Both the position numbers and the translations under genes were made by a program. DNA of 64,000 nucleotides from Bryobacterales bacterium (lineage in GTDB: Bacteria > Acidobacteriota > Terriglobia > Bryobacterales > Bryobacteraceae), in assembly GCA_020852175.1 (NCBI GenBank), contig JADZBH010000004.1:1-64000 (forward strand), in the 5' to 3' direction. A model generated the notes under the pieces. It was given only the letters and a program-made list of their open reading frames with translations, did not search any database and was not told where the DNA came from. This document shows positions 7,645-36,728 of this stretch, piece by piece; position 1 is the stretch's first letter; every line of letters begins with the position of its first letter.

Positions 7645-10600
7645 TTAGAAGTAAAACTTCAGTCCCAATTGGATCACGCGGGTCGTCAGGCCCTGCACGC
7701 CTGCTCCCACTTTGCCGAAGTTTTGCGACCGCGAACCACGGTCCACCGAGCCGGGTTCGATGTTGTAGTGGTTCGGCAGATTGTAGAACTCCGTGCGGAA
7801 CTCCACGCGGCGCGTTTCGCCAATGCGGAACTGCTTGTTCACCGATAGGTCGATGCTGAATACGCCGGGCAGCCGGATGGCCCCCGTACGCGGGGCGTTC
7901 CCGAAAAAACCCATTTGCGGCGCGGCGAAGGCCCCTGTATTGAACCAGCGCTGGTAGGTGCGCTCGCCGGAGGCGAGGTTGGCTTTCTGGCCGGCCACCA
8001 TGTCGGGGCGGGAACCTACGCCGGTGCCCGTCGTGTCAACGCCGTAGGCGATGTCGGAGGCAAACCCGCTTTGCGCGACGATGATGCTGGACACCTGCCA
8101 GCCGCCGGCCAGCGTCCGCACCATGGGCGGGGCGCCGTTGAACAGCGGCAGGTCGTAGACCAGCGACTGGACGAAGCGCTGCGTCACATCGAAGCCGCAG
8201 AGAGACCGCTCGTTGGCCAGGTCGTAAATGTTCTGGATGCCTCCGATGAACGAGCCGCCGCCGATATCGGCGCCGATATCGCTCGGTCCGGAAATGCATT
8301 TGGACCAGGTGTAGGCCGTGAGCGAGGTGAGTCCCCGCGCCATCCGGCGGTCAGCGCGCACCTGCAGGGAGTGGTAGCTTGAGTTGCCAATCGACTTATC
8401 GCCCTGGATGGCGCGCAGGAACGACTGGTTGGGCCGCCGGGCATTGATCGAAGCCAGCCCTGGCGTCCGCGGGTCCACCACTGCGAAGGGCCGGTTCATT
8501 GACGGCAGCGTCACGCTCAAACGTGTCCCCTTGGACCCAACGTAGCCGGCGTCGAGCAGGAAGCCCGCCACGGTCTGCGTCTGCACGGTGAAGTTCCACT
8601 GCTGAATGTAGGCGTCGCGGTAATAGGGGTCGTTCGAGGGCACGGCGTTGAGCTCAAAGCCCGGCGTGCCGACGCGGCGGAAAGGGTCGTTCAGGAACAC
8701 GTCCGGAGACCCCGCCGGGGCCCCGATGATCGAATAGCTGCTTTTGGCCTGCGACGATTCCGTGTTACCGAACGGCGCGTTCGGGTGAATGTGGTTGTAA
8801 TAGACGCCGTAGCCTGCCCGAACCACTGTCTTCGGCACGAAGCCGGGACGCCAGGCGATGCCCACGCGCGGACCGAAGTTGTTCTTGTCGCCGCGCACCA
8901 TGCGCGGGAACGCCGCCGTGGCCGGCGTCACCAGCCGCGTGACGAACAGGCCGTTCTGTTCGATGTTGGCCATGCGGCCCTGCGAATCGAACAGCGGCTG
9001 CAGGTAGTCGTAGCGCACGCCCAGGTTCAGGGTCACGTTCGGCCGGATCTTCCAGTCGTCCTGCACGAAATAGCTCTGCCACAAGGCTTTCAGGTCCGTG
9101 TTCGTGTGGTCGGGGTTGATGTTGGCCGTCTTCACGTAGCCGAGCATGAAATCGGCCATGGCCGAGCCCGTGTAGGTGCCGTCGAAGGAGAAGTCGCCGC
9201 GCGGGTTGCGGGCCTGCTCGAAGGTGAAACCGCGTTGCACGAAGTCGGCGCCAATCTTGATGAAGTGCTTGCCGCGCTGCATCGAGAGAATGTCGTTGAA
9301 GTTATAGACGGCGTTGGCGCGTACGCGCGGGCCGATCTGGCGCTGAATATTGAAGACGCTGAAGCCGCCCTCCGGGCCGCTGATCGAAACGCTCGGCGGG
9401 CCGTAATCGATGGGCAACTGCGAAGCGAGCGGGATCTTCATCTCGTTGGCGATGTTGAACTCGGGCTTGTTCGTGGTTCCGAAAATCTCGTCCTCGGTCA
9501 TGTCGTTCCAGCCAAACCGGACTTCATTGACGATCGAGGATGAGATCATCCGCGTCCAGGTGCCGGCCAGATTTTGCGTGCGTGCGTTGTTGTCGCGCAC
9601 GTCGTTGCCCCAGTAGGGCGTGCCCTTTTCGATGGTCGAGTTCCACAGATAGCGGAATGAGAGCGCATCCTTGTTCGTAAGCGTGTGGTCAACGCGATAG
9701 GTGTAGTTGTCCTGCGTGGCCACGGCGCTTTGCGGATTATTGATGAAGTTCAGGTTGCCAACGCTTGTGTTGGGCTGCGGCGTGTACTTCAGGAACGTGA
9801 CCGCCTGCTGGCTGATCTGCGAGCGTGGAATCTGGTTGTTCACGATCCCGATGTTGAGGGGATCCCGCAATGTGATCGGCGCCCCGGTGCGGGAGTTGGT
9901 GAGCTTGCTGAAGTCGCCATTCCGCATATCCGAGGGAGGCACCAACCGGTAGCCGGCCGCGGCGCCCGAAGCCAGCCGTCCGCTCTCCCAATTGAAGAAA
10001 AAGAAGGTGCGGTCCTTGCCGTTGTAAAGCTTGGGGATGTAGACCGGCCCGCCGATGTTGGCGCCGAACTGATTCCGGTTCAGCCGGGGCGAGGCGGCAT
10101 TCTTGTTCGCGATCGCGTCATAGGTCTGCGTCAGCGCGTCGTTGCGGTTGAACTCCCACAGCGTGCCGCGCAGGGCATTGCTGCCTCTGCGCGTCAGGAT
10201 GCTCACCTGCCCGCCAGGCGAGGCGCCGTATTCGGCCGAGTAGGTCGACGTCTCCACGCGGAACTCGGAGAGCGAATCCACTGAAAGAGCGAAGGGATAG
10301 CTGAAGGCATCGTAGTCCATGAATTCGACGCCATCGAGGTAGAAGCGGTTGTTCGTATCGCGGGCTCCGTTGGCCGACATGGCCGTTTGACCGAAGCTGC
10401 GCGACGTCTCTCCAATCGACCCGCGCCCGCGCCGGACGGTGATCGAGCCGGGCGTACCCGGATTCACGCCGGGAATCAGTTGCGCCAGTTGAATAAAGTT
10501 GCGGCCGTTCAGGGGCAGATCGACGATCTTCGACGCATCGATCACGCCACCCACGCTCACCGTCTCGGTCTGGAGTGAGGCCGACGACGCCGACACGCTC

Positions 10601-10944
10601 ATGGTCTGCGTCACCTCGCCGAGTTCGAGTTTCAAATCCAGGCGCGCCGTCTGGCCCACTTGCAGGTCGAACGACTCCACCTGGTAGGTGCGGAAGCCCT
10701 TGGCCGTCGCCTCCAGTGTAAACCGGGCGGCCGGCAGAAAGGGAATGGAATAGTGTCCCGTCGAGTCGGTAACCGTTTCCCGGACAACGTTCGTTTCCAG
10801 GTTCTTCAGCCGGATCTGGGCCGCGGGGACCGCGGCGCCGGATGCATCCACCGCTGTGCCGACGACGGTTGCGGTGGTCTGTTGGGCCCAGAGCGAACCT
10901 GTAGCCAGGCACACTCCCAAACATACGGATAAAGTGAGCTTCAT
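7645..10944 (-). CDS. TonB-dependent receptor with N-terminal carboxypeptidase-regulatory-like domain (Oar-like)
   Basis: The longest ORF starts at 11199 but overlaps the divergent gene at 11098. The ATG at 10944 opens a good signal peptide (MKLTLSVCLGVCLATGSLWAQ) and has a GAAGAGGAG site upstream, so 1,099 residues is preferred. Residues about 25-110 are a beta-sandwich carboxypeptidase-regulatory-like domain (VVGTAVDASGAAVPAAQI, then STGHYSIPFLPAARFTLEATAKGF). A plug domain follows (VDLPLNGRNFIQLAQLIPGV) and then a large beta-barrel, with typical acidobacterial receptor phrases such as LYNGKDRTFFFFNWE and a terminal aromatic beta-signal (QLGLKFYF). The protein sits in the outer membrane and probably takes up a large substrate, perhaps oligosaccharide. 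No TonB box is clear by eye. Its divergent neighbour is a membrane-anchored regulator, a plausible controller. Confidence 0.93.
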   Translation of the reverse strand: MKLTLSVCLGVCLATGSLWAQQTTATVVGTAVDASGAAVPAAQIRLKNLETNVVRETVTDSTGHYSIPFLPAARFTLEATAKGFRTYQVESFDLQVGQTARLDLKLELGEVTQTMSVSASSASLQTETVSVGGVIDASKIVDLPLNGRNFIQLAQLIPGVNPGTPGSITVRRGRGSIGETSRSFGQTAMSANGARDTNNRFYLDGVEFMDYDAFSYPFALSVDSLSEFRVETSTYSAEYGASPGGQVSILTRRGSNALRGTLWEFNRNDALTQTYDAIANKNAASPRLNRNQFGANIGGPVYIPKLYNGKDRTFFFFNWESGRLASGAAAGYRLVPPSDMRNGDFSKLTNSRTGAPITLRDPLNIGIVNNQIPRSQISQQAVTFLKYTPQPNTSVGNLNFINNPQSAVATQDNYTYRVDHTLTNKDALSFRYLWNSTIEKGTPYWGNDVRDNNARTQNLAGTWTRMISSSIVNEVRFGWNDMTEDEIFGTTNKPEFNIANEMKIPLASQLPIDYGPPSVSISGPEGGFSVFNIQRQIGPRVRANAVYNFNDILSMQRGKHFIKIGADFVQRGFTFEQARNPRGDFSFDGTYTGSAMADFMLGYVKTANINPDHTNTDLKALWQSYFVQDDWKIRPNVTLNLGVRYDYLQPLFDSQGRMANIEQNGLFVTRLVTPATAAFPRMVRGDKNNFGPRVGIAWRPGFVPKTVVRAGYGVYYNHIHPNAPFGNTESSQAKSSYSIIGAPAGSPDVFLNDPFRRVGTPGFELNAVPSNDPYYRDAYIQQWNFTVQTQTVAGFLLDAGYVGSKGTRLSVTLPSMNRPFAVVDPRTPGLASINARRPNQSFLRAIQGDKSIGNSSYHSLQVRADRRMARGLTSLTAYTWSKCISGPSDIGADIGGGSFIGGIQNIYDLANERSLCGFDVTQRFVQSLVYDLPLFNGAPPMVRTLAGGWQVSSIIVAQSGFASDIAYGVDTTGTGVGSRPDMVAGQKANLASGERTYQRWFNTGAFAAPQMGFFGNAPRTGAIRLPGVFSIDLSVNKQFRIGETRRVEFRTEFYNLPNHYNIEPGSVDRGSRSQNFGKVGAGVQGLTTRVIQLGLKFYF

Positions 10945-11001
10945 AAGCCGACGAGAGACTCCTCTTCGGGCTAAGGTACGCTCCAGCTCAGCCATAGACA
11001 A

Positions 11002-11027
11002 GAGAATTCTCCGTGAATTCTCGGAGA
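11002..11027. promoter_or_regulatory. Candidate palindromic operator between receptor and regulator
   Basis: The divergent 153-base gap contains the perfect palindrome GAGAATTCTC (11002-11011), a near copy of its half GAATTCTC at 11015-11022, and a second, overlapping dyad TCTCCG-N8-CGGAGA (11008-11027). On the minus strand a weak sigma70-like pair (TTGTCT, 17 bases, TACCTT) lies immediately downstream, so a protein bound here would touch the -35 region of the receptor promoter. This is inferred from position and symmetry only. Confidence 0.4.
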
Positions 11028-11097
11028 GTTTGCAGCGCAAGCGGTTTATTTTGAAGCAGGTTCCCGCTCCCAGGCGCGGTGATAGAATGTGTAGGCC

Positions 11098-12438
11098 ATG
11101 AGGGAGTCCGGCATCGGCCACGAAGAACCGCCCTTGCCGCCGGCAACCAACGAGGATGAGCGCTGGGCCCTGGTGGCGCGCATCTGCGCCTCTCCCCATC
11201 TGGCCCGCTCCACGAGGTTAAAGGAGCTGCTGCACTATGTCTGCCGGCGCACCTGGGACGAAGGCGCCGAGGAGATTCGCGAGCACGAGATCGGCGTCGG
11301 CGTCTTCCAGCGCCCCCCTCAGTACGATTCGACTCAGGACACGATTGTCCGCGTCCAGGCCTCGCAATTGCGGAAACGCCTGGAGCGATACTTCGCCGAG
11401 GAAGGGCGCGAGGAACGTCTGTTCATCGAGGTCAGCCGGGGCTCCTACCTGCCGGTGGTGCACGAGCGCGCCGAACTTCAGATCGAGGCGGAGGGTTCCA
11501 GCGATACCAATCCCGCCGGGCCGCGGCCGGGCCGGCACTACCTGATTTGGCTGCTGGGATGCTTGTCCGCGGGCCTGCTCCTGCTGTGCGGCTGGTTGTT
11601 TTACCAACTTCGGAGCCAGACGCCCACACCCGCCGCGGGCCCCACCGTGCGGCAGTTCTGGTCCGCGTTTGCCTCCAACGGCGCAGAGTCCTTTATCGTC
11701 GTCGCCGATTCCTCCTACTCCGCGCTGCAGGATGCCATTGAACGCCCGATCGGCATTGACGAGTATGTCCGGCGCGGCTATGAAGACGAGTTCAGCAAGG
11801 CCGGGCTTCCCCCCAAGTACGGCCAGTTGCTGCGCTACCTGATGGCGCGCCGCTACACCTCGCTCGCCGACGTGCTCGTCGTGCGGCGCATCACCGAATC
11901 GCAGCTTCTGAACCCCGCCCGGACCTCCGTGGTACATACCCGCGACCATAACATCCGCGCCTTCCAGCAGGGCAATCACATTCTGATCGGATCGCAGCGG
12001 GCCATCCCCTGGGTAAGCCTGTTCGATGCCTCCCTGGACTTCCATATCTACGACGGCAACGAGGACTTCCACCTGATGCATGAGGCGCGCGATGCGCGCG
12101 TCTGGGTGGAAAACCGCCGTCCGCGGCCCGGCGAACTGCCCCGCTACATCAGCCTTTCGCGTGGGTCCGGAGGCACACAGGGATACGCCCTGATCGCCTG
12201 CCTGCCCAATCTGAGCCGCACCGGCAACGTGCTGATCCTGGCCGGCTCGGACATGACCAGCACGGAAGCGGCGGGCAACCTGCTCACCACGGAAAGCTTT
12301 CTCTCCGATCTGCTGAACCGTCTGCCCGCGGGCGCGGGTTCGGGCCCGCCGCACTTCGAAGCGCTGCTGAGCACGCAGCGCGTGGAGAGTTCGAATCGCG
12401 GCTTCGAGCTCATCGCCCTGCATCCGCACGGCCCCTGA
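11098..12438 (+). CDS. Membrane-anchored one-component regulator-like protein (N-terminal DNA-binding-like domain, one TM, periplasmic domain)
   Basis: The 446-residue protein has three parts. Residues about 20-122 match a domain I recognise from many acidobacterial proteins: LARSTRLKELLHYVCRRTW, then EHEIGVGVFQRPPQYDSTQDTIVRVQASQLRKRL and FIEVSRGSYLPVV. In relatives this block precedes TolB or TPR regions and is treated as a winged-helix-like transcriptional module; it has no well-known name. A single transmembrane helix follows (about 147-171, LIWLLGCLSAGLLLLCGWLF). The remaining ~270 residues should be periplasmic and show no catalytic motif, but contain HILIGSQRAIPWVSLF, which may be a ligand-binding domain. 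The layout resembles ToxR/CadC-type regulators. It is transcribed divergently from the TonB-dependent receptor, with a palindrome between them. Function is inferred. Confidence 0.7.
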   Translation: MRESGIGHEEPPLPPATNEDERWALVARICASPHLARSTRLKELLHYVCRRTWDEGAEEIREHEIGVGVFQRPPQYDSTQDTIVRVQASQLRKRLERYFAEEGREERLFIEVSRGSYLPVVHERAELQIEAEGSSDTNPAGPRPGRHYLIWLLGCLSAGLLLLCGWLFYQLRSQTPTPAAGPTVRQFWSAFASNGAESFIVVADSSYSALQDAIERPIGIDEYVRRGYEDEFSKAGLPPKYGQLLRYLMARRYTSLADVLVVRRITESQLLNPARTSVVHTRDHNIRAFQQGNHILIGSQRAIPWVSLFDASLDFHIYDGNEDFHLMHEARDARVWVENRRPRPGELPRYISLSRGSGGTQGYALIACLPNLSRTGNVLILAGSDMTSTEAAGNLLTTESFLSDLLNRLPAGAGSGPPHFEALLSTQRVESSNRGFELIALHPHGP

Positions 12439-12457: not shown

Positions 12458-12982
12458 CTACTGGGCCGCGTGACAGAAGTCGCAGCCGTTCGGGGCGCCC
12501 CGCTCGGCGTGGCAATCCATGCAGTCCTTCATGTTCAGCACGCGCGCCTTGGTGGTGACGGCCATCCCGGCCACCTCGCCATGGCAGGCGGCGCAGGCGA
12601 TCTTGGCCGTCTGTGTGTGCGCGGCATGGTTGAACCAGACGATCGGCATCAACCGGTAGACACGCACCCATTCCACCGCCTTCTTATCAGCGGCGGCCTT
12701 GGCCAGTTTGGCGATTTCCGGTGAATCCTTCTTGATGGTGGTGTGGCACCCCATGCAAAAGGACTCCTTGGGGAAGCCCATCGCGAACCCCTCGCCCGCT
12801 TCGGTTGGCTTCATCGCATGGCAGACGTTGCACTTCAGCCCCAGAGCCAGGTGCGTCTTGTGCGAGTAGGCGATGGGCTGTGCCGGAGCATAGCCCACCG
12901 GATCGGTCTTCAACTCGTCGTCGGCGAACGCCGTCAGCGGCAGCAGAACGGCGGCGGCGATCAGGATGGCGGTTCGTTTCAT
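12458..12982 (-). CDS. Periplasmic pentaheme c-type cytochrome
   Basis: The 174-residue protein has a signal peptide (MKRTAILIAAAVLLPLTAFA) and five CxxCH heme-binding motifs: CNVCH, CMGCH, CAACH, CMDCH and CDFCH. Extra His residues (YSHKTHL, WFNHAAH) are available as distal ligands, as in the c3/c7 multiheme class. It should act as a periplasmic electron carrier. It begins only 3 bases after the stop of the PQQ dehydrogenase gene on the same strand, so the two are almost certainly co-transcribed. The cytochrome is the natural electron acceptor of that enzyme, which itself carries no heme domain. The pairing is inferred from position. Confidence 0.92.
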   Translation of the reverse strand: MKRTAILIAAAVLLPLTAFADDELKTDPVGYAPAQPIAYSHKTHLALGLKCNVCHAMKPTEAGEGFAMGFPKESFCMGCHTTIKKDSPEIAKLAKAAADKKAVEWVRVYRLMPIVWFNHAAHTQTAKIACAACHGEVAGMAVTTKARVLNMKDCMDCHAERGAPNGCDFCHAAQ

Positions 12983-12985
12983 CGC

Positions 12986-14842
12986 TTATAAGCTAAACGC
13001 AATGAACTCGTCGGAAGCGGGCGAGCCTTCCTTGCCGCCACAGGCGGCCACCACCAGATACTGCTTGCCGTTGGCTTCGTAGCTGCAAGGCGTGGCAAAC
13101 CCGGCCGATTCCAGCCTGTGCTCCCAGGCAATCTTGCCCGTGTCGCTTTCATAAGCGCGGAAGACTCGGTCGAAGGTGCCGCTCATGAAGACGAGTCCGC
13201 CCGCCGTGCAGATGCTGCCGCCGTGCGAACTGGCGCCCGTCTTGGGGATGCCCTTGGCCGTCAGTTCGGGGAACTCGCCGTTGACGACACGCCAGGCGAA
13301 CTCGCCCTTGCCGCAGTCGATGGCCGTCATGTAGCCCCACGGCGGCTTGATCCCCGGATAGCCCTTGTTGTCGCGAAGGTCGTTGCGCTTGGTGAGTTGA
13401 TACCGGTACGGCATACCGGGCTTGGCGTCGGCGAAGGCCACTATGTTCGACGTGTCGTCGGAACTGACGAAGACGCGGTTGCGCTTAGGGTCGAACGAGC
13501 AGCCGCCCCATAGCGGACCGCCCCGAAAGCCGGGATGCACGAGGTAGCCGTTCTTCGCGTTCGGCGTGTAGATGGGACCGCGTTTGATCCCCTGTAAAAT
13601 GTCCTTCACGTAGGCCGTGGCCTCGGGAGAGATGTCGGTGATCCACTCGTCGCGCCAGCCCTGCCGCGACACGGCCGGCGGCTTGGAAGGGAAAGGCTGC
13701 GTCGGGTGCAGACGCTCGCCTTCCAGGTCCGATTGCGGGATGGGCCTTTCCTCCACGGGCCAGATGGGCTGGCCGGTGTCACGATGGAAAAACCACATCC
13801 AGCCCTGCTTGGTGGGTTGCACGACGGCGTCGATGGTCTTGCCGCCATGGCGCATGGTGATCAGCGCCGGTTGCGCGGGCATGTCCATGTCCCACACGTC
13901 GTGATGGACGATCTGGTAGTGCCATTTGCGCTCCCCGGTGAGCGCATCCAGCGCCAGAACACAGTTGCCGAACAGGTTCGCGCCTTTCCGGTTGCCGCCG
14001 TAAAAATCGAAGGCGGGCGACCCGATGCCGGCGAAGACAAGGCCGCGCTTGGGATCGACGCTCATGCCGGCCCAGTTGTTCGTGCCGCCGGCGGAGAGCC
14101 AGGAATCGTTCTCCCAGGTATCGTTGCCGAACTCGCCCGGCCGCGGCACCGTGTGAAAGATCCAGCGGCGTTTGCCGGTCTTGGCGTCCCACCCGCGAAT
14201 GTGCCCCGGGGCCTCCGGATACGGCCCTTCGCCGCCGCCGCCACCGGTGATGACCACGTCCTTATAAACAACCACGGGCGAGGTGTGCTTGAAGGAGAGA
14301 TTGCGCATGTCGTGATCGAACTCTTCCTTGAGATCGAGCACGCCCTTGTTGGCGAAGCTCTCGATGAGCTGGCCGGTCTTGGCGTTCAAGGCAATCAGCG
14401 TGTCCTGGTAACAGGAGAAGATGCGCTTGTCCTCGCCCTCCTCCCAATAGCACACGCCCCGGCTGTTGCCGGGCGAACGGCGCGTGGTGCGTCCCTGCGC
14501 CGGATCGAAACTCCACAGCAGTTCGCCCGTGGCCGCGTTCAACGCCTGCATCTTCAAGCGGGGCGTCGAGATGTACATGACGCCGTCCACGACGATGGGC
14601 GTGCACTCGCTCGACGTGGCCGGACGCTGGCTCGCGTCGCCCGTCTTGTGAACCCAGGCCACCTTCAGGCTCTTCACGTTCGAGGGCGTGATCTGCTCCA
14701 CGGGCGAATAGCGCGTGGCCTGGGCATCGCCCGCATACCAGTTCCACTCCCGTTCGCGCGGCGTGGCGGCCGCGGCGCGCGGTCCCGGAATCAGAGTGGC
14801 GGCGGCGGCCGAATGGATGAGAAAATCGCGGCGTTTCATCAA
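12986..14842 (-). CDS. Tat-exported PQQ-dependent dehydrogenase (glucose-dehydrogenase-like beta-propeller)
   Basis: The 618-residue protein starts with a twin-arginine signal (KRRDFLIHSAAAATLIPG). The mature enzyme is an eight-bladed quinoprotein propeller. W-rich docking repeats are visible (LKVAWVHKTGD, GELLWSFDPAQG, GKIAWEHRLESAG), as is HHDVWDMDMPAQPALI, a hallmark of the membrane glucose / quinate dehydrogenase group. NNWAGMSVDPKRGLVFAGIGSPAFDFYGG also fits. It lacks the N-terminal membrane helices of Gcd and the C-terminal cytochrome domain of quinohemoprotein alcohol dehydrogenases, so it should be a soluble periplasmic enzyme that oxidises a sugar or alcohol with PQQ and passes electrons to the adjacent pentaheme cytochrome. 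PQQ synthesis genes are not in the window. Substrate is uncertain. Confidence 0.92.
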   Translation of the reverse strand: MMKRRDFLIHSAAAATLIPGPRAAAATPREREWNWYAGDAQATRYSPVEQITPSNVKSLKVAWVHKTGDASQRPATSSECTPIVVDGVMYISTPRLKMQALNAATGELLWSFDPAQGRTTRRSPGNSRGVCYWEEGEDKRIFSCYQDTLIALNAKTGQLIESFANKGVLDLKEEFDHDMRNLSFKHTSPVVVYKDVVITGGGGGEGPYPEAPGHIRGWDAKTGKRRWIFHTVPRPGEFGNDTWENDSWLSAGGTNNWAGMSVDPKRGLVFAGIGSPAFDFYGGNRKGANLFGNCVLALDALTGERKWHYQIVHHDVWDMDMPAQPALITMRHGGKTIDAVVQPTKQGWMWFFHRDTGQPIWPVEERPIPQSDLEGERLHPTQPFPSKPPAVSRQGWRDEWITDISPEATAYVKDILQGIKRGPIYTPNAKNGYLVHPGFRGGPLWGGCSFDPKRNRVFVSSDDTSNIVAFADAKPGMPYRYQLTKRNDLRDNKGYPGIKPPWGYMTAIDCGKGEFAWRVVNGEFPELTAKGIPKTGASSHGGSICTAGGLVFMSGTFDRVFRAYESDTGKIAWEHRLESAGFATPCSYEANGKQYLVVAACGGKEGSPASDEFIAFSL

Positions 14843-14911
14843 GGGGAGACTCTATCAATCTGACGGCCCTACTTGCAACGAAGTTACCGGGGGAGAGAAG
14901 ATGGCCGTGGC

Positions 14912-16231
14912 ATGATCACCCGGCGAGAGTTCAGCGGACTGGCGGCGGGAGCCCTGGCCGCTCAGTCACAACCTGCGCGGCCCAACATCGTTTTCATCTT
15001 TTCCGACGATCACCACTATCAGTGTCTCGGCGCCGCCGGGAACCCGCACATTCAGACGCCGAACCTCGACCGGCTGGCCTCGAAGGGCGTGAACTTCACG
15101 CACGCCATGGCCAGCACGCCGCAGTGCTGCCCGTCGCGCGGCATCATGTTGTCGGGGTTGGAGACCTATCAAAACGGATTGCAATCGAATGGCTACACGG
15201 CGTTCAAGCCGGAGCACGGTCCGACGGCGATCGAACAGTTGCGCCGCGCCGGCTACGCGACCCACCTCGCCGGCAAATGGCATATCACGAACATGCCCGG
15301 CGAGTGCGGCTTCACGAACGCACCGTTGTGGTTGCGCGGCGGCGGCAGCAAGTATGTGGATCCCGTGCTGCGCCGCGGCCTGGAGGGCCAGGATCAGGAG
15401 ACCAGAGGCCATATCACGGATCTGTTCACCGATGCCGCCGTGGACGTGGTTGAGAAGGCCGCGAAAGACAAGCCCTATTTCCTGTGGCTCAGCTATAACG
15501 CGCCTCACACGCCTTGGACCGCCGTTGAGCCTTACAAGACGCGATACGCGGTGAAAGCCGCGCCGCCACCCGCGCACCCGGCCGGAGGCAAGCCGTTCGA
15601 CTGGGCCACCTACTACGCGGTTATTTCCCACATGGACGCGGGCATTGGACGCGTGATCACCGCCATCGAGAACGCCGGGCAATGGGACAACACGCTCATC
15701 TTCTTCATCGGCGACAACGGCTACCTGTGCGGAACCAAAGGGCTGAACGGCAAGGTGCATCCATGGGAGGAAAGCGTGCGCGTTCCTTACCTGGTTTCAG
15801 GCGGCGCGGTGCGGGCGCGCGGCAAGCAGAGCGCTCCGGTCTGTTCCATCGACGCACCGGCCACCTGGCTCGACTTCGCCCGAGTCAAACCGGCCTACGC
15901 GCTGGCCGGCACGAGCCTGCGCGAAGAGTTGGCCAAAGGCACTTCGCACCACGAGCACGGCTTCGCCGTTTGGAACGACGGCCGCCCCGAAGGCCTGGCC
16001 ACTCGCGTCGCCGTGGAACCCTACCGCCTGGTGCGCACGCGCTTCTACAAGTACATCCTGTGGCAATCGAAACGGGACGCGCTCCACGAGGTGGACAGAG
16101 ACCTGGCCGAGGCGCGCAACCTGGCGGAAAAGCCGTCGGCGCTGCACAAGCAGGTGATCGCCGAAATGCGCGGCGCGTTGGAAGAGCGCATGGAGAAGAC
16201 CAACGATCCCGCCCTGGCCTGGATGCGTTGA
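14912..16231 (+). CDS. Tat-exported sulfatase
   Basis: The ORF track starts at 14873, but the ATG at 14912 begins a twin-arginine signal (MITRREFSGLAAGALAAQ), giving 439 residues. The catalytic start RPNIVFIFSDDHHYQCLG supplies the metal-binding Asp pair. The formylglycine site is CCPSR (first Cys about residue 72). Downstream, TEWx-like HLAGKWHI and NTLIFFIGDNGYLCGTKG (metal-binding Asp-Asn) and the C-terminal EVDRDLAEARNLAEKP are standard for the arylsulfatase / choline-sulfatase-like group. The substrate is probably a sulfated polysaccharide fragment, but nothing here identifies it. It ends 7 bases before the convergent DUF1080 gene. Confidence 0.93.
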   Translation: MITRREFSGLAAGALAAQSQPARPNIVFIFSDDHHYQCLGAAGNPHIQTPNLDRLASKGVNFTHAMASTPQCCPSRGIMLSGLETYQNGLQSNGYTAFKPEHGPTAIEQLRRAGYATHLAGKWHITNMPGECGFTNAPLWLRGGGSKYVDPVLRRGLEGQDQETRGHITDLFTDAAVDVVEKAAKDKPYFLWLSYNAPHTPWTAVEPYKTRYAVKAAPPPAHPAGGKPFDWATYYAVISHMDAGIGRVITAIENAGQWDNTLIFFIGDNGYLCGTKGLNGKVHPWEESVRVPYLVSGGAVRARGKQSAPVCSIDAPATWLDFARVKPAYALAGTSLREELAKGTSHHEHGFAVWNDGRPEGLATRVAVEPYRLVRTRFYKYILWQSKRDALHEVDRDLAEARNLAEKPSALHKQVIAEMRGALEERMEKTNDPALAWMR

Positions 16232-16238
16232 CCCGCGG

Positions 16239-16973
16239 CTAAAGTTCCTTGGCCGCCTGCCCCGGCCCGAGGATGCCGGGCGGCAGTTCCATCAGCCGGA
16301 TATTGCGGAAGTGGATCTTCGCGCCCTCGGACTCCAGGCACAGATAGCCCTTCTTCTGGGTCGCCTTGGAGATGCCGTTCACGAACTTTCCGTTGATCGA
16401 CAGCTTGATGGTGCCGTCCACGGCCACGACGTCATAGACGTTCCACTCGTTCTTTGGCTTGCAGCGCGACTCGAACGAGAAGCTGCGCTGGCCGCGCGGA
16501 TTGTCGGCCACTGTCTTCACACCGCCCACGCCAAACAACTCGCCCGTCACATAGGCATGGGGCGGCGTAATGCCGTCGCGCGCGTGCAACTCCGGCCAGC
16601 CAAGTTCCAGCATCTGAATCTCGATGCCATCCGGCAGCCGGTTTTTTTCGCCCGGGACGGCGCCGGACCAGGCGAACACGCCGGAGTTTCCACCCGTCTC
16701 GGTGTGCATCCACTCTATATGCAGAAGAAAGTTTTCATACTGCTTCACGCTGCGCATGACGCCGATCGGAGTGCCCTTGCAGACCAGTTCGCCGTTCTGC
16801 ACGGACCATGTGTCGGGATCGGTGTTCACGTTCACCCACCCCGTAAGGTCGCGTCCGTTGAACAGATCCACCCACTGCGGCACGAGCGTGGGCGGCGTGG
16901 ACGATTGCGGCAGCGCTGGAAACACAAGCGCCGCCAGGACGAAGGCGGCGGCACAACCAAGGAAAATTCTCAT
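16239..16973 (-). CDS. Secreted DUF1080 protein (3-keto-disaccharide hydrolase family)
   Basis: The 244-residue product has a signal peptide ([23 protein letters not shown]) and a single concanavalin-like beta-sandwich with the DUF1080 landmarks [41 protein letters not shown] and [20 protein letters not shown]. The family is now linked to hydrolysis of 3-keto-glycosides made by Gfo/Idh/MocA-type oxidoreductases, which are abundant in this window (38963, 43028, 56558). The exact substrate is unknown. It converges with the sulfatase at 14912. Confidence 0.9.
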
Positions 16974-29681: not shown

Positions 29682-32600
29682 TTAAAACTCCAAACGTAAT
29701 GCCACCTGCCCGGTGCGCGCGCCGCCGAAATCAACGCCGCGGGCGCCGGTGATGCGCCCGAAGTTGCTATCGGCCACGTTCAGGTTCGGGTCGCCCAGGT
29801 TGGTCCAGTTGGGCAGGTTCGTGAACGAGCCCTCCAAGCGCAGCCCCACGTTCTCGCGAATCACGAACCGCTTGCTCAGGCCCATGTTCAACGCGAACGT
29901 ACCCGGTCCGTTGAAGATGCCCACGCCGGCATTGCCGAAGCGGGCGATTGGATTCGGATCGCGGCCCGGCGTGGAACCGACACGGCAGTCGTATTGCAGT
30001 CCGCCCACCTCGCGTCCCGGACAGACAAAGGCGGCGCGGTTGGCCCATATGTCGGCTGTTGGGTTCGACACCGAACCGTTCGCCTCGCCCACGCGGTCCG
30101 GGCGCTGCGCGCCGCGGCTGGGACCGTTCGTGCCCGAAGGATCCCCGCCGGAGAACGTGGGCGTCAGGAACGCGCCCGATTGCAGCGTCAGAATGCTGGA
30201 CGCCTGCCAGCCGCCCAGCACCAGTTCGGCCGCGCGTCCCGCCCCGCTCATGAACTTGCGTCCCTTGCCGAAGGGCAACTGGTACACCATGGTCGTCACG
30301 AAACGGTGCCGCCGCGTGGCGTAGACGTTGCCGCGGTCGGCGCGCCGGTCCAGAGAGTTCGTCACGCGCCCGCCGCCGGTTTCCCCGGCGAAGCCCGTGG
30401 GCGCCGGTCCGGCGTTGTCGGCCAGGTTCTTGGCCATCGTGTAAGCCGTCGTGAAGCTTAACCCGCTCGTGAAACGGCGGTTCACCTCGAACTGGAGCGA
30501 GTTGTACAGCGAATTCGCCCCGGCATCGCGGCTGAAGATCAGGCCCCAGTTCGGAAACGGCCTGTCCAGGCTGGTGCGCCGCGCATAGAACGACGTCGAG
30601 GGAGTCATCTGGTTCACATCCGGCGCCCACGGCAACTGGTAGGAACGGTTGCCGATGTAGGAGACGCGCAGCCCTGTATTGCGGGTCAATTCGCGGTCCA
30701 CCGTCAACGCCCATTGCAGCATCTGCGGCGGCTTGAAGTCGATCTGATTGGCCGTGCGGAATTCAAACGTGCCCAGCGAACCGCCGCGCACGCCGCTGCC
30801 CGGAGTCCGCGTTTCCGGCAGCGCGAATATCGGTTTGCCGTCGGCGCCGATGTTGTTGAAGTTGCGCACGTCGCTCTGCACGGTACCCGTCAGCGAATAG
30901 AAGACCGAGCCCATCAGAATCATGTTGTACAGCCCGCCCGAGGCCCGCAGCGTCGTTTTATTGTTCAAACGGTAGGCCAGTCCAACGCGCGGCAGGAACT
31001 GTGTCTTATATGTGTTGCGGAGCGACTCCGGCAGGCCCGCGTCTTTCGCCGTGACGATCGGCGTGCAGCCAATGCCGTTCTGCGCCGCGCCAGGGCAGCC
31101 GTTGAAGGAGAGAATCGCGCCGGGCGCCACCAGGTTTCGCGCCTCGGGGTCCGACATGATGATCACCGCGCCCGTCCGCGCCACGTTACGGTCGAAGTTG
31201 GCGATGTTCAGCCCGTTGTCGCGGTAGCCGGGGTGGAGTTCGTAGCGCACGCCCAGGTCGAGCGTCAGCTTGCTGTTCACGCGGATCGTGTCCTGCGCAT
31301 ACAGCTTGTAGTGTGTCGCCTGGCCGTCGTTATCCCGGTCGAGAGCGGCGACCGCCGTGCTCGTGGGGACTCCCAGCAGGAAATCGGAGAAACCGTAACC
31401 CGTGAACGCCGGGCCAAAGCTGAAATCGCCGTAGTTGTTGCCCGTGGTGAAGCCCAGATCGGAACGCGCCCGCAGGTTGCGCACGTCGCCGCCGAACTTG
31501 AAGGTATGCTTGCCGCGAACCCAGGTCAGGTTGTCGATGAACTGGACATTGTCCGAGATGCTATAGCCCGGCCGGCCCTTGCTCACGCTCGTGTACAGGT
31601 CGATGCCGAAGGCCGGCAGTCCGTTGAAGAAGATATCCCGCTGAATGTCCTTCAAGCCAAGGTCGTTGGTGAACGCGCGGCCGTCGAAGTTGAAAATGGT
31701 CGCCGAATCGGACTTGATGTAGCCCATGCGCGCTTCGTTCAGCAGGTTCGGCTTGATCGTGTAGGTCCACGAGCCGGATACCTGCCAGAACTTCGCGCTC
31801 TGCGTATCGGACGGCAGCGTCAGCGCGTTGGCGCCCAGCGCCGGATTGTTCTTGTAGGAGAGGCGTCCGTAGACGTGGTGCTTCAGGCTGAAGTTCTGGT
31901 CCACGCGCGCCTCGTACTGATCGGAGTTGATCGAGGTCGAGCGGTTCTCGCGGTAGTTCGACGCCGACCGCCGGTCGGTCGGACCCGTGTTCGGAAGCGG
32001 GTAGAGGCTCATCACCTTCTTGGCGATGTCGCTGATGCGCGAGGCCGGAACGATGTTGCCCGCGAAGGGAACGCCCGTGTAAGGATCGCGAATGTTCACG
32101 CCTTCCCGGCTGAAGTCGCCTCCTCGCACGAAGCTGGTGGGCACCGTGTTCTGGATCGTGCCCTGCCGGGGGAACCGCAGCGACTCCCAGGTGAAATAGA
32201 AGAATGTCCTGTCCTTGCCGTTGTACAGTTTCGGCACAATGACCGGTCCGCCCAGCGTGCCGCCGAACGTGTTGCCGATCTTGGCCGGCAATACGTTCTG
32301 TCCGTAAGCGCGCGCGTCGAATGCCTTGTTCTGGTGATACCAGAACAGCGCGCCGTGATAGGCGTTCGATCCGCCCTTGGAGATCACCGTCACGTCGCCC
32401 GGTTGGCCGAACTCCGCGGTGTTGCCCACGCCCTGCACACGGACTTCACTGATCGACTCCACCGAAAGGAACATGTTCCGGTTCGGCGAATTGCCCGTCG
32501 AGGCCGTGATCGAAATGCCGTCCACGGTCGACTCCGACTGCGCCGGAAGCCCGCCCTGGATCGACAGCGCCGCGCCATTGTCTCCCTGCACGCCCGGCAG

Positions 32601-33095
32601 CGACTGCAGCAGGGCATAGGGGCTTGTGCTGCCCGCGCCGCGCACGTTGGAAGGCAGATTCAACACTTTCTCCGCCGTGAGGTTCGAGGCAATCGAAGGC
32701 GTGTCCGTCGCAATGACGCCCGCCGACGACTCGACCTCCACCGTTTGCGTCACTTCGCCTACTTCCAGACGCGCATCCACGCGCAGCCGGGAGCGGGCCT
32801 CCAACGTCACGCCGCCGGAAACGAACGTCCGGAAACCCGGCGAGGTCACCGATACCGTATACGGACCGGCGTCCACGTTCTGGAACTCGTACCCACCCTG
32901 CTCGTTGGTGACTCCCTCGCGGCTCGTGTTCGAGGCCGTTTGGGTCACCTTCACAGCCGCGCCTTTTACCACCGCGCCGGAGGCATCGGTCACGTTTCCC
33001 AGGATCACGCCATAGGTAGACTGCGCCCAGACCGGCGATGCGGAGGCAGTGCACAGCAAAAACACGGCAAAAATTGCTTGTTGAGATAGTTTCAT
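29682..33095 (-). CDS. TonB-dependent receptor with N-terminal carboxypeptidase-regulatory-like domain
   Basis: About 1,137 residues from the ATG at 33095. A GTG at 33107 is also possible, but the AAGGGTG just before the ATG looks like its ribosome site. The signal peptide is KLSQQAIFAVFLLCTASASPVWA. Residues about 25-115 are the carboxypeptidase-regulatory-like sandwich (GVILGNVTDASGAVVKGAAV, YEFQNVDAGPYTVSVTSPGF). Then come the plug (ALLQSLPGVQGDNGAALSIQGG, VTVISKGGSNAYHGALFWY) and a large barrel with LYNGKDRTFFYFTWE, closing with the aromatic beta-signal GQVALRLEF. It is the same architecture as the receptor at 7645, but the barrels differ, so they should take up different substrates. The amine-catabolism-like operon starts 71 bases away on the other strand. 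Confidence 0.92.
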   Translation of the reverse strand: MKLSQQAIFAVFLLCTASASPVWAQSTYGVILGNVTDASGAVVKGAAVKVTQTASNTSREGVTNEQGGYEFQNVDAGPYTVSVTSPGFRTFVSGGVTLEARSRLRVDARLEVGEVTQTVEVESSAGVIATDTPSIASNLTAEKVLNLPSNVRGAGSTSPYALLQSLPGVQGDNGAALSIQGGLPAQSESTVDGISITASTGNSPNRNMFLSVESISEVRVQGVGNTAEFGQPGDVTVISKGGSNAYHGALFWYHQNKAFDARAYGQNVLPAKIGNTFGGTLGGPVIVPKLYNGKDRTFFYFTWESLRFPRQGTIQNTVPTSFVRGGDFSREGVNIRDPYTGVPFAGNIVPASRISDIAKKVMSLYPLPNTGPTDRRSASNYRENRSTSINSDQYEARVDQNFSLKHHVYGRLSYKNNPALGANALTLPSDTQSAKFWQVSGSWTYTIKPNLLNEARMGYIKSDSATIFNFDGRAFTNDLGLKDIQRDIFFNGLPAFGIDLYTSVSKGRPGYSISDNVQFIDNLTWVRGKHTFKFGGDVRNLRARSDLGFTTGNNYGDFSFGPAFTGYGFSDFLLGVPTSTAVAALDRDNDGQATHYKLYAQDTIRVNSKLTLDLGVRYELHPGYRDNGLNIANFDRNVARTGAVIIMSDPEARNLVAPGAILSFNGCPGAAQNGIGCTPIVTAKDAGLPESLRNTYKTQFLPRVGLAYRLNNKTTLRASGGLYNMILMGSVFYSLTGTVQSDVRNFNNIGADGKPIFALPETRTPGSGVRGGSLGTFEFRTANQIDFKPPQMLQWALTVDRELTRNTGLRVSYIGNRSYQLPWAPDVNQMTPSTSFYARRTSLDRPFPNWGLIFSRDAGANSLYNSLQFEVNRRFTSGLSFTTAYTMAKNLADNAGPAPTGFAGETGGGRVTNSLDRRADRGNVYATRRHRFVTTMVYQLPFGKGRKFMSGAGRAAELVLGGWQASSILTLQSGAFLTPTFSGGDPSGTNGPSRGAQRPDRVGEANGSVSNPTADIWANRAAFVCPGREVGGLQYDCRVGSTPGRDPNPIARFGNAGVGIFNGPGTFALNMGLSKRFVIRENVGLRLEGSFTNLPNWTNLGDPNLNVADSNFGRITGARGVDFGGARTGQVALRLEF

Positions 33096-33166
33096 TTTGG
33101 ATTTCACCCTTGTTGAGTAACTCCCGTTATGTTGGTCGATTGTAGCGCGAGTTCCGTGTCAGTCAA

Positions 33167-34600
33167 ATGGCAATTTCATTTCGGGCCCGTGTTACACTGA
33201 CCGATCACCCAGTGACCTCCTCCAGCCACAGCCTGCAGAAGACCGCCGGATGGGTCCATCTATGGGCTTTAGGCGTCGGCGGGGTAATCTCCGGAAACTT
33301 CTTCGGCTGGCAGACCGGCCTGCTCACGGGCGGCTTCGGCGGGCTTTTCCTGGCCACATTGATCATCGCGGCCATGTACGTTTGCCTTGTCTTCTCTATC
33401 GCTGAATTGTCGGCTGCCCTCCCCTCCGCTGGGGGATTCTACAACTTCACCCGTTCCGCGTTCGGCAAGGACCGCGCCTTTTTGAATGGACTGACCGACG
33501 CGATCGAGTATGTCACCACACCGGCCGTCATCGTCGCCGGCATCGCCGGTTATATGAAGGCGCTTGCGCCATCCACGCCGGAATGGATCTGGTGGGTCGT
33601 CTTTTACTGTATCTTTGTGTCAATTAACGTGAAAGGCGCGGCGCTTACTTTTCGCGTCTCCATGGCCATCACCGCGCTCGCCGCTTTCGTGCTTGCCTTT
33701 TTCTATGCCAGCGCCCTGCTGACGGGCTCGTTCCGCTGGGAGCACGCCTTGAACATCCCCCCCACCACGCCCGGCGGAACCGCGTTTCTTCCTCACGGCT
33801 GGTTCGGCATCTTTTCCGCTCTGCCCTATGCCGTGTGGTTCTACCTGGCCATTGAACAACTCCCTCTGTCGGCCGAAGAAAGCTTCGACGCAGAGCGCGA
33901 CATGCCTCGCGCCCTCAAATGGGGCATGGCCACGCTGCTGTGCCTGTCTCTGAGCACGCTGGTTTTGAACTCGGGCGTGGGCCCCGGCGCGGCCGGCGTG
34001 GGCGCGTCGAACTCCCCTCTGGAAACCGGTTTCCGCGCCGTCTACCCCAGCAACGTCACCGCAGCATTGCTTTCAATCATCTCGCTCACCGGCCTCATCG
34101 CGAGCTTCCATTCCATCATTTACGCTTACGGCCGCCTGCTGTTCTCCCTGAGCCGCTCCGGATACCTGCCCTCCGTGCTGGGCCATGTGGGCCGCTGGCG
34201 CACCCCCTCTGTGGCGCTCATCGCGGGCGGCGTGCTCGGGCTCGCCCTGTGCTTCCTCGCTCAGCGTTACTCGACCAGCGTGGGCGCGGCGCTGTTGAAC
34301 ATGGCCGTCTTCGGCGCGTTGCTTTCCTACATCCTGGTGCTGATCTCATTTATCCGCCTGCGCGTGGATTCGCCCCTGCTGCGCCGCCCTTACCGTTCGC
34401 CGCTCGGCATTCCCGGCGCGATCGCCGGCATCTCGCTCGCCCTGCTTTGCCTGGCCGCCACGTTCGCGGTACCCTCATTCCGTCCCGGCGTCACCGGCGC
34501 CGCCGTCTTCATCGCGGCCATGCTCGCCTACTACTGGCTCTACCGCCGCCGCCATATGGAAGCCTATGAAACCAACATCCGCTCATCTCACTCTTCCTGA
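33167..34600 (+). CDS. APC-superfamily permease (ethanolamine / amino acid permease-like)
   Basis: First gene of a five-gene operon. The 477-residue protein has about 12 hydrophobic segments. The first repeats resemble ethanolamine permeases (HLWALGVGGVISGNFFGWQTGLLTGGFGG, SIAELSAALPSAGGFYNFTRSAFG), with the helix-disrupted GVGGVISG typical of APC substrate sites. AVWFYLAIEQLPLSAEESFDAERDMPRAL is also shared with that group. The start is uncertain: a GTG at 33212 would give 462 residues beginning close to the conserved region, and neither site has a good ribosome sequence. Its end overlaps the next gene by 35 bases. Import of an amine or amino alcohol is inferred from the operon. Confidence 0.87.
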   Translation: MAISFRARVTLTDHPVTSSSHSLQKTAGWVHLWALGVGGVISGNFFGWQTGLLTGGFGGLFLATLIIAAMYVCLVFSIAELSAALPSAGGFYNFTRSAFGKDRAFLNGLTDAIEYVTTPAVIVAGIAGYMKALAPSTPEWIWWVVFYCIFVSINVKGAALTFRVSMAITALAAFVLAFFYASALLTGSFRWEHALNIPPTTPGGTAFLPHGWFGIFSALPYAVWFYLAIEQLPLSAEESFDAERDMPRALKWGMATLLCLSLSTLVLNSGVGPGAAGVGASNSPLETGFRAVYPSNVTAALLSIISLTGLIASFHSIIYAYGRLLFSLSRSGYLPSVLGHVGRWRTPSVALIAGGVLGLALCFLAQRYSTSVGAALLNMAVFGALLSYILVLISFIRLRVDSPLLRRPYRSPLGIPGAIAGISLALLCLAATFAVPSFRPGVTGAAVFIAAMLAYYWLYRRRHMEAYETNIRSSHSS

Positions 34601-35927
34601 ACTGAAGCGGCTCGCCCAGTCCGGCGAAATCGACACCGTCATCGTCGCGTTCACCGACCACTACGGCCGCCTGATGGGCAAGCGCTTCGACGCCGGTTTC
34701 TTCCTCTCCCATGCGGTCCGCGACGGCACGCATTGCTGCAACTACCTGCTCACCACGGACGCTGAAATGGAGCCCGTCCCCGGCTACTCGTTCGCCAACT
34801 GGGAACTCGGCTATGGCGACTTCCACATCGTTCCCGACACTGCCACCCTTCGCCGCCTGAGCTGGCAGGACCGCACGGCCTTCGTGCACTGCGACGTCGA
34901 TCAGGTTGACCTCGCCCCGCGCTCCATCCTGAAGAGGCAGGCCGCCCTGGCGGCCAAAACAGGCTACGAGGCCATGGCCGCCAGCGAGTTGGAATACTAC
35001 ATCTTCCGCGACACCTACCGCGATGCCGCGAAGAAGGAGTACCGCGGGCTGGAACCCCTCGGCTGGTATCTCGAGGACTACAACATCCTGCAGGGCACGC
35101 GCGAGGAGTTCTACACCGCCGCCGTGCGCCGCCATTTGAAGGCCTCCGGCATCGCCGTCGAAAATTCGAAGGGCGAATGGGGCCTCGGCCAGCATGAAAT
35201 CAACGTCCGTTACGGCCCCATCCTCCAGATGGCCGACGACCACACTCTCTACAAGCAATGCCTGAAGGAGGTGGCCGAGCAGTCCGGCGTCAGCGTCACC
35301 TTCATGGCCAAGCAGGCAGCGGGGCAGGCCGGTTCGGGTTGTCACGTTCACCTCAGCCTGCGCAAGGGCGGGCGCAACGCCTTCGCCGGAAACAAGAAGC
35401 TGGGGCCGGTGAGCGGCTCCGACGTTTTTCGCTGGTTCCTGGGCGGCTGGCTCGCCCACGTGCCCGAGTTCATGGTCTTCTACGCGCCCACCGTGAATTC
35501 CTACAAGCGTTTTGAAGACCTCTCCTGGGCCCCCACGCGGCTGGCCTGGAGCCACGACAACCGTACGGCTGGCTTCCGCGTCGTCGGCCACGGCGAATCG
35601 TTGCGCATCGAGTGCCGCATTCCGGGTGCCGACATCAATCCATATCTCGTCTTTGCCGCCGCTCTCGCTTCCGGCCTGGATGGCATCGCCAACCGGACCG
35701 AGCCGCCGCCCGTTTTCGAGGGCGATGTCTACGCCGCGCGCGCGCTGCCCCGCGTACCCTACTCGCTGGCAGAGGCCATTGGCCGCTTCGAGTCCAGCGA
35801 GTTCGTGAAGACCGCCCTGGGCGCGCCCGTCGCCGCTCACTACGCCCACTTCTACCGCAGCGAGCAGCGCGCGTTCGACCGTGCCGTCACCGACTGGGAA
35901 CGGCGCCGCTATTTTGAGAAAATCTAA
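34566..35927 (+). CDS. Glutamine-synthetase-like gamma-glutamylamide synthetase
   Basis: A 453-residue glutamine-synthetase-fold ligase. It has the beta-grasp start (VIVAFTDHYGRLMGKRFD), ASELEYYIF (metal Glu), GLGQHEINVRYGPIL, the GSGCHVHLSL strand, the ATP loop NSYKRFEDLSWAPTRLAWSHDNRTAGFRV and RIECRIPGADINPYLVFAAALASGLDGI. The sequence type is that of gamma-glutamylpolyamine / gamma-glutamylethanolamide synthetases (PuuA, GlnA4, IpuC), not housekeeping GlnA. The adenylylation loop of GlnA is absent. It would join glutamate to an amine using ATP. The start inside the permease end and the flanking dehydrogenase and amidotransferase genes support this. Confidence 0.88.
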   Translation: MKPTSAHLTLPELKRLAQSGEIDTVIVAFTDHYGRLMGKRFDAGFFLSHAVRDGTHCCNYLLTTDAEMEPVPGYSFANWELGYGDFHIVPDTATLRRLSWQDRTAFVHCDVDQVDLAPRSILKRQAALAAKTGYEAMAASELEYYIFRDTYRDAAKKEYRGLEPLGWYLEDYNILQGTREEFYTAAVRRHLKASGIAVENSKGEWGLGQHEINVRYGPILQMADDHTLYKQCLKEVAEQSGVSVTFMAKQAAGQAGSGCHVHLSLRKGGRNAFAGNKKLGPVSGSDVFRWFLGGWLAHVPEFMVFYAPTVNSYKRFEDLSWAPTRLAWSHDNRTAGFRVVGHGESLRIECRIPGADINPYLVFAAALASGLDGIANRTEPPPVFEGDVYAARALPRVPYSLAEAIGRFESSEFVKTALGAPVAAHYAHFYRSEQRAFDRAVTDWERRRYFEKI

Positions 35928-35954
35928 TCCGACCCTGAAGGACCAACACACTCC

Positions 35955-36728
35955 ATGCGTTTGCAAGACCAAGTCGCACTGATCACCGGCGCGGGCAGCG
36001 GCATCGGCCGCGAGTCCGCCCTTCTGTTCGCCGCCGAAGGCGCCGCGGTGGCCGCCGCCGACGTGAACCTCGCCTCGGCTGAAGTAGTCGCCGCCGAGAT
36101 CGCCAAGGCCGGGGGCAAGGCCATCGCCGTGAAGGCCGATGTGTCCAAGGCCGCCGACTGCGAAGCCATGGTGGCCGCCGCCGAAAAAACATTTGGTAAG
36201 CTCACCGTGCTCTTCAACAACGCCGGCATCTCCCATGCCGACGACGACGACGCCATGACCACCAGCGAAGCCGTCTGGGATCTCACCTTCGCCATCAACG
36301 TAAAGGGCGTCTTCCTGGGCTGCAAATACGGCATTCCGGCCCTTCAGCGGGCCGGCGGCGGCTCCATCGTCAACACGGCTTCCTTCGTGGCCCTCCTCGG
36401 CGCGGCCACGCCCCAGCTTGCCTACACCGCCAGCAAGGGCGCCGTGCTCTCCATGACGCGCGAACTCGCCGCCATACACGCCCGCCAGAATATTCGCGTG
36501 AACGCCCTGTGCCCCGGCCCGCTGCGCACCGAACTGCTCATGAAGTACCTGAATACGGAAGAAAAGAAGCAGCGCCGCCTTGTTCACATTCCCATGGGCC
36601 GCTTCGGCGAGGCCGCTGAAATCGCCAAGGCCGCGCTCTACCTGGCCTCCTCGGAATCCTCTTTTGTCACCGGCTCGGAGTTCCTCGTGGACGGCGGCAT
36701 CACGGCGGCCTACACGACTCCTCTCTAA
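35955..36728 (+). CDS. Short-chain dehydrogenase/reductase
   Basis: The 257-residue SDR has the nucleotide motif TGAGSGIGRE, NNAGIS, catalytic Ser region VNTASFVALLGA, YTASKGA (Tyr-x-x-x-Lys) and the C-terminal FLVDGGITAAYT. It lies 27 bases after the ligase gene in the same operon. If the substrate is a gamma-glutamylated amino alcohol, this is the enzyme expected to oxidise the hydroxyl group to an aldehyde for the next gene product. That replaces the flavin amine oxidase (PuuB) of the putrescine pathway, which is absent here. The substrate assignment is inference; the fold assignment is firm. Confidence 0.9.
   Translation: MRLQDQVALITGAGSGIGRESALLFAAEGAAVAAADVNLASAEVVAAEIAKAGGKAIAVKADVSKAADCEAMVAAAEKTFGKLTVLFNNAGISHADDDDAMTTSEAVWDLTFAINVKGVFLGCKYGIPALQRAGGGSIVNTASFVALLGAATPQLAYTASKGAVLSMTRELAAIHARQNIRVNALCPGPLRTELLMKYLNTEEKKQRRLVHIPMGRFGEAAEIAKAALYLASSESSFVTGSEFLVDGGITAAYTTPL

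Follow-up and report, generated by a model that had tools for sequence, protein, structure and literature searches.

A ToxR/CadC-like one-component regulator, encoded in the window (the whole stretch of 64,000 nucleotides that was analysed), probably binds a tandem repeat upstream of its gene and controls the divergent gene of TonB-dependent-receptor type, most likely by activating it. We assign this reading a probability of about 0.7. The regulator is a member of a large family that has neither a Pfam nor an NCBIfam entry to itself, and the 11-bp tandem repeat (GAATTCWCSG) in the gap between regulator and receptor is new here. The features of the locus are listed below.

7645–10944, minus strand: TonB-dependent-receptor-type gene (CarboxypepD_reg, weak Plug and OMP_b-brl_4 by domain search); orthologues are 72–92% identical and in the same divergent position
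10973–10978, minus strand: TACCTT, a possible but weakly matching −10 for the receptor gene, with a 17-bp spacer, read from the sequence
10996–11001, minus strand: TTGTCT, a −35-like element for the receptor gene that adjoins the operator; putative promoter, read from the CTTG beside the repeat
10999–11024, no strand: predicted operator CAAGAGAATTCTCCGTGAATTCTCGG, a conserved block in the gap alignment, in which GAATTCTC occurs at 11004 and again 11 bp on, at 11015
11080–11088, plus strand: TGATAGAAT, which resembles an extended −10 for the regulator gene and ends 9 bases before the ATG
11098–12438, plus strand: gene of the membrane-anchored regulator (open reading frame of 446 codons; orthologues 84–47% identical)
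11143–11475, plus strand: N-terminal DNA-binding-type domain (residues 16–126), from model confidence, PF00486 in relatives and an ArlR fold match
11533–11616, plus strand: single transmembrane helix (residues 146–173), from AlphaFold and hydrophobicity
11629–12435, plus strand: C-terminal, presumed periplasmic domain (residues 178–446) of BcsB/S-layer-like alpha/beta fold, from AlphaFold, Foldseek and weak Pfam matches

The receptor gene starts at 10944 on the minus strand (MKLTLSVCLG...) and the ATG of the regulator is at 11098; 10945–11097 is exactly the intergenic gap. The placement of the regulator opposite a receptor gene, as claimed in the earlier note, was thereby confirmed, with the two genes 153 bp apart on opposite strands. 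The receptor matched PF25183 (2.1e-208) and PF13620 (1.2e-19). Its Plug match reached 20.2 bits, below the curated cut-off of 23.9, and the domain search detected no STN (FecA-type signalling) domain in it. Oar of Myxococcus, which is related to such receptors, has been associated with export.

Cytochrome-c7-like, PQQ-dehydrogenase-like, sulfatase-like and DUF1080-like genes lie at 12458–16973. They are kept in two loci of the same genus (L008 and L009) and have no match in L010 and L011. In two loci of other genera, the receptor and the regulator are kept and the other neighbours found in the window are unmatched. The window also holds, at 29682–33107 (minus strand) and 33167–36728 (plus strand), a second receptor-type gene that faces an amino-acid-permease-like gene with no regulator of the family between them. 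Glutamine-synthetase-like and short-chain-dehydrogenase-like genes follow the permease-like gene; these three were named by eye.

In the domain search the regulator itself matched no Pfam or NCBIfam model, and solved structures searched with its sequence, a full-length profile and a profile of the C-terminal domain gave 0 matches. The AlphaFold model, built with 77 aligned relatives, had a mean pLDDT of 89.8. Residues 149–167 form one strong hydrophobic segment (mean Kyte-Doolittle 2.19), and the approximately 270 residues after the transmembrane helix were modelled as a confident alpha/beta domain. The K/R charge bias flanking the helix was weak (189 versus 166), and the C-terminal domain is presumed to be periplasmic. 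An N-terminal domain, one transmembrane helix and a C-terminal domain of about 270 residues had been claimed before, and all three are predicted within the 446 residues; this architecture agrees with the membrane-anchored one-component design proposed for the protein.

When modelled alone, the N-terminal domain reached a pLDDT of 94 and consisted of four helices and a two-stranded wing. The recognition-type helix comprises residues 83–101 and the wing strands residues 108–112 and 119–123; the segment FQRPPQYDSTQDTIVRVQASQLRKRL corresponds to residues 70–95 of the translated reading frame. In the model, a helix takes the place of the N-terminal beta sheet that OmpR-type domains have. The top fold match was the DNA-binding domain of ArlR (probability 0.82, E 0.24), with RpaA next among the leading matches (probability 0.66, E 0.74); the matches to ArlR and RpaA span E values of 0.24–1.0, none individually significant. 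A sequence comparison of the N-terminal profile with solved structures gave RpaA as the best match, at E 0.22 only. PF00486 (Trans_reg_C) was matched by 18 of the 77 relatives, at best with 4.3e-7, and not by the regulator itself. These three weak-to-moderate lines (fold, profile and Trans_reg_C) agree, and the order of helix, helix, recognition helix and wing fits. We regard the domain as most like OmpR-type winged helices, with individually weak matches. Structure prediction supports the winged-helix-like fold expected of this domain, with a recognition-type helix and a wing both predicted, though fold support is moderate.

Proteins with this N-terminal domain were also found to carry TPR, TolB_N, LpoB-like and Malectin parts in the window's own and a related genome, in line with the statement that relatives usually have TolB or TPR parts. 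In one of them (L101:4419–5999, plus strand, genome G143), this N-terminal domain is fused to a Malectin domain; that gene, too, faces a receptor, which suggests that the sensor parts are interchangeable. A stand-alone N-terminal domain of 119 residues (L098:2224–2583, minus strand), in the same genome, adjoins a class-V aminotransferase-like gene.

The C-terminal domain had been described as being of unknown fold. Wholly unknown it is not, as the fold resembles those of BcsB and an archaeal S-layer domain. The full-length model matched BcsB in Foldseek (E 5e-4, probability 1.00) and the Methanococcus S-layer domain with a TMt of 0.59, and a few relatives matched the S_layer_C and BcsB Pfam models, at about 0.001. 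A comparison of the C-terminal-domain profile with two acidobacterial BcsB was not significant, and a viral fold library gave no match. Because TM-scores on the full-length query were low and the profile comparison was not significant, we treat the likeness to BcsB as a fold lead, not as proven homology. That the domain may sense the imported substrate, as suggested in the earlier note, is a plausible guess given the neighbouring receptor, but the C-terminal domain showed no detectable coevolution with the receptor.

To survey the pairing, loci were picked by similarity to the regulator, not by context, and receptors were detected with a profile derived from the receptor of the window. Of 200 genomes of the same family searched at the protein level, 199 had matches, many of which covered only the N-terminal domain. 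Removal of duplicates left a set of 80 full-length members, each with at least 900 bases upstream. In 64 of these 80, a receptor gene on the opposite strand has its start no more than 700 bp away. In the remaining 16, the receptor is the second divergent gene (3), lies directly downstream on the same strand (4; L033, L056, L057 and L058) or is absent from the stretch examined (9). Without the 14 top-scoring members, the corresponding numbers were 51 divergent, 3 second-divergent, 4 downstream and 8 with none, out of 66. Each of the 13 members of the regulator's own orthologue clade (those in the tree plus two near-copies) faces a receptor 72–92% identical to that of the window. One top-scoring member, L025, has no receptor; it is 38% identical, lies outside the own clade by identity and faces a GH28 gene. 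Three whole genomes contained 10 full-length members, 9 of which face a receptor, one of these receptors (in G099) carrying an in-frame stop.

The pairing is thus far beyond chance, and the claimed association with receptors was upheld by the genomic survey, with 64/80 members divergent and 9/10 in the three genomes. Chance figures of about 4e-16 and 2e-79 were obtained against a rate of 1.5%, which was estimated from roughly 69 receptors among roughly 4,600 genes and is not a measured null; as the relatives are non-independent, these figures say only that chance is out of the question. Genomes of the group carry at least 57–69 receptors each; these counts are lower bounds, with 57 of 93 candidates scored in the window's own genome. 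A receptor is faced by one of six distinct proteins that join the N-terminal domain to other C-terminal parts (the Malectin protein). The same holds for 3 of 11 frames with the N-terminal domain only, two of the three being pieces of one interrupted full-length gene (L104).

Across the phylum, the C-terminal-domain profile found matches in 10 of 119 genomes, namely the own genome, eight genomes from a second family of its class and one from a family further removed. The matches sit in frames of 417–560 residues, except for one of 255. In the second family and the more distant genome, where flanks were shorter, the receptor pattern recurs in part. Genes adjoining receptor-less members are varied: one encodes a GH28 glycosidase, and another a mandelate-racemase-type enzyme that is followed by a receptor. 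Such neighbours would fit a nutrient-related regulation.

Alignment of 13 orthologous gaps revealed a sole conserved non-coding block, CAAG-N-GAATTCWCSG-N-GAATTCWCSG. With up to 3 mismatches, the block occurs once in the 5.0-Mb genome, in the regulator-receptor gap. A GAATTC pair with at most 1 mismatch was present in 13/13 orthologous gaps (0.03 expected) and in 12/32 gaps of the next group (0.09 expected). It was found in 0/22 gaps of the most distant group (relatives below 440 bits), so the repeat is not a family-wide site. Among the 54 gaps outside the orthologue group, the spacing of repeats peaks at 11 bp, with 13 cases against 1.4 expected. In two orthologues the repeat is spaced by 10 bp instead of 11 and a third near-copy is present. 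Since GAATTC is self-complementary, the repeat can also be read as tandem palindromes.

In the direction of the receptor, TTCACTTG closes the repeat; its TTG is at the expected −35 position, and CTTG adjoins the repeat in 23 of the 25 repeat-bearing gaps listed. A consensus promoter scan of the gap found no standard promoter and also missed the TACCTT −10. Towards the regulator, TGN[TA]ANNAT is kept in 13/13 orthologous gaps. As this extended −10-like element ends 9 bases before the ATG in the window, the regulator transcript may be nearly leaderless.

The conserved repeat between both genes suggests that the regulator controls the neighbouring receptor. We propose that the regulator would consist of a cytoplasmic OmpR-type winged-helix domain and a periplasmic BcsB/S-layer-like domain, linked by a single membrane helix, and that it would bind head-to-tail to the predicted operator at 10999–11024, immediately upstream of the receptor promoter. 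Once bound, the regulator would control (most likely activate) the gene of the divergent receptor and perhaps also its own, and the periplasmic domain would respond to a compound related to the receptor's substrate.

Recognition of the repeat can be compared with the sequence of the putative recognition helix. Residues DT at positions 81–82, at the start of this helix, are found in 20 of 22 relatives with the repeat and in 2 of 39 without it. In the tree, this link falls mostly within one subclade, with too few independent changes for an independent-pairs test; the pattern is therefore consistent with, and no proof of, recognition of the repeat by the DT-bearing helix. That another regulator binds the conserved repeat, with the membrane protein acting elsewhere or only on its own gene, appears very improbable to us. 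Binding of the repeat by the regulator is itself a prediction from sequence, and in two relatives (L069 and L040) the repeat is present although the recognition helix has no DT; against this, the repeat occurs in the genome only in the regulator-receptor gap, and its presence largely tracks the recognition helix of the regulator.

If the regulator does bind there, it could instead be a repressor that covers the receptor promoter and is released by a periplasmic signal. A third TTCAC element belonging to the repeat extends into the −35-like TTG, and the position of the site does not by itself decide the sign. Nevertheless, tandem sites just upstream of the −35 are typical of OmpR/PhoB-type activators, and the −10 of the receptor gene is poor, as in activator-dependent promoters; we consider repression improbable and the regulator, from the position of its site, probably an activator of the receptor gene. 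As to the signal, the C-terminal domain might read the receptor itself or a polymer of the cell envelope and not a free imported substrate, which we judge to be rather unlikely. The BcsB-like and S-layer-like fold belongs to families that work in envelope assemblies, and the regulator is closely paired with one receptor. On the other hand, distances between C-terminal domains and between receptors are uncorrelated (Mantel r 0.05), but saturated, and some of the 9/80 full-length members without a receptor in the stretch examined stand beside enzymes such as GH28.

Receptors of this group are mostly without a known substrate or regulation, and one-to-one regulators with a predicted operator would make both testable: the operator would identify the receptor under control, and the sensor domain may point to the substrate. 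More tentatively, and with the odds somewhat against it, this acidobacterial class may hold a large ToxR-like family with one regulator for each neighbouring receptor, which replaces FecR/ECF and senses the substrate of the receptor through the BcsB/S-layer-like domain, a sensor of a new kind. If true, this fold would join the known kinds of bacterial sensor domains.

The regulator falls in the general class of membrane-anchored one-component regulators surveyed as transmembrane transcription regulators, which are reported to be somewhat enriched in Acidobacteriae (PMC10269533). A text search of that survey found no mention of TonB, and no description of the regulator-receptor pairing was found in the openly licensed literature. 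The system resembles FecA-FecR-FecI in that a TonB-dependent-receptor-type gene would be coupled to its own regulation. It differs in the lack of STN on the receptor and of an adjacent FecR/ECF sigma factor, and in the use of a single-protein regulator. No FecR/ECF genes were found among the neighbours of the locus. The whole genome has 4 FecR matches and 1 STN match, the latter in an 821-residue frame on another contig, none adjoining the receptors listed. The classical FecA-FecR-ECF route is absent from the locus. The suggested bypass of the usual anti-sigma/ECF pair would presuppose that such a pair is usual here, and nothing in the genome points to that.

The ToxR-like receptors (PMC5430869), such as CadC of E. 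coli and ToxR of Vibrio, have in common with the window regulator a DNA-binding domain, one transmembrane helix and a presumed periplasmic sensor, and a promoter-proximal site is likewise predicted here. In contrast to them, the DNA-binding domain of the window regulator has no counterpart of the N-terminal beta sheet that the same paper describes for CadC, and is a weak fold match; its sensor part is BcsB/S-layer-like, and it is systematically paired with a receptor gene. The arrangement of recognition helix and wing is shared with OmpR/PhoB-type regulators (ArlR and RpaA), and the 11-bp tandem repeats suit head-to-tail binding, but the window regulator has no receiver domain and is predicted to be membrane-anchored. 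Its C-terminal domain resembles the fold of BcsB and of the archaeal S-layer outer domain (PF03170 and PF05124), from which it differs in being fused to a DNA-binding domain.
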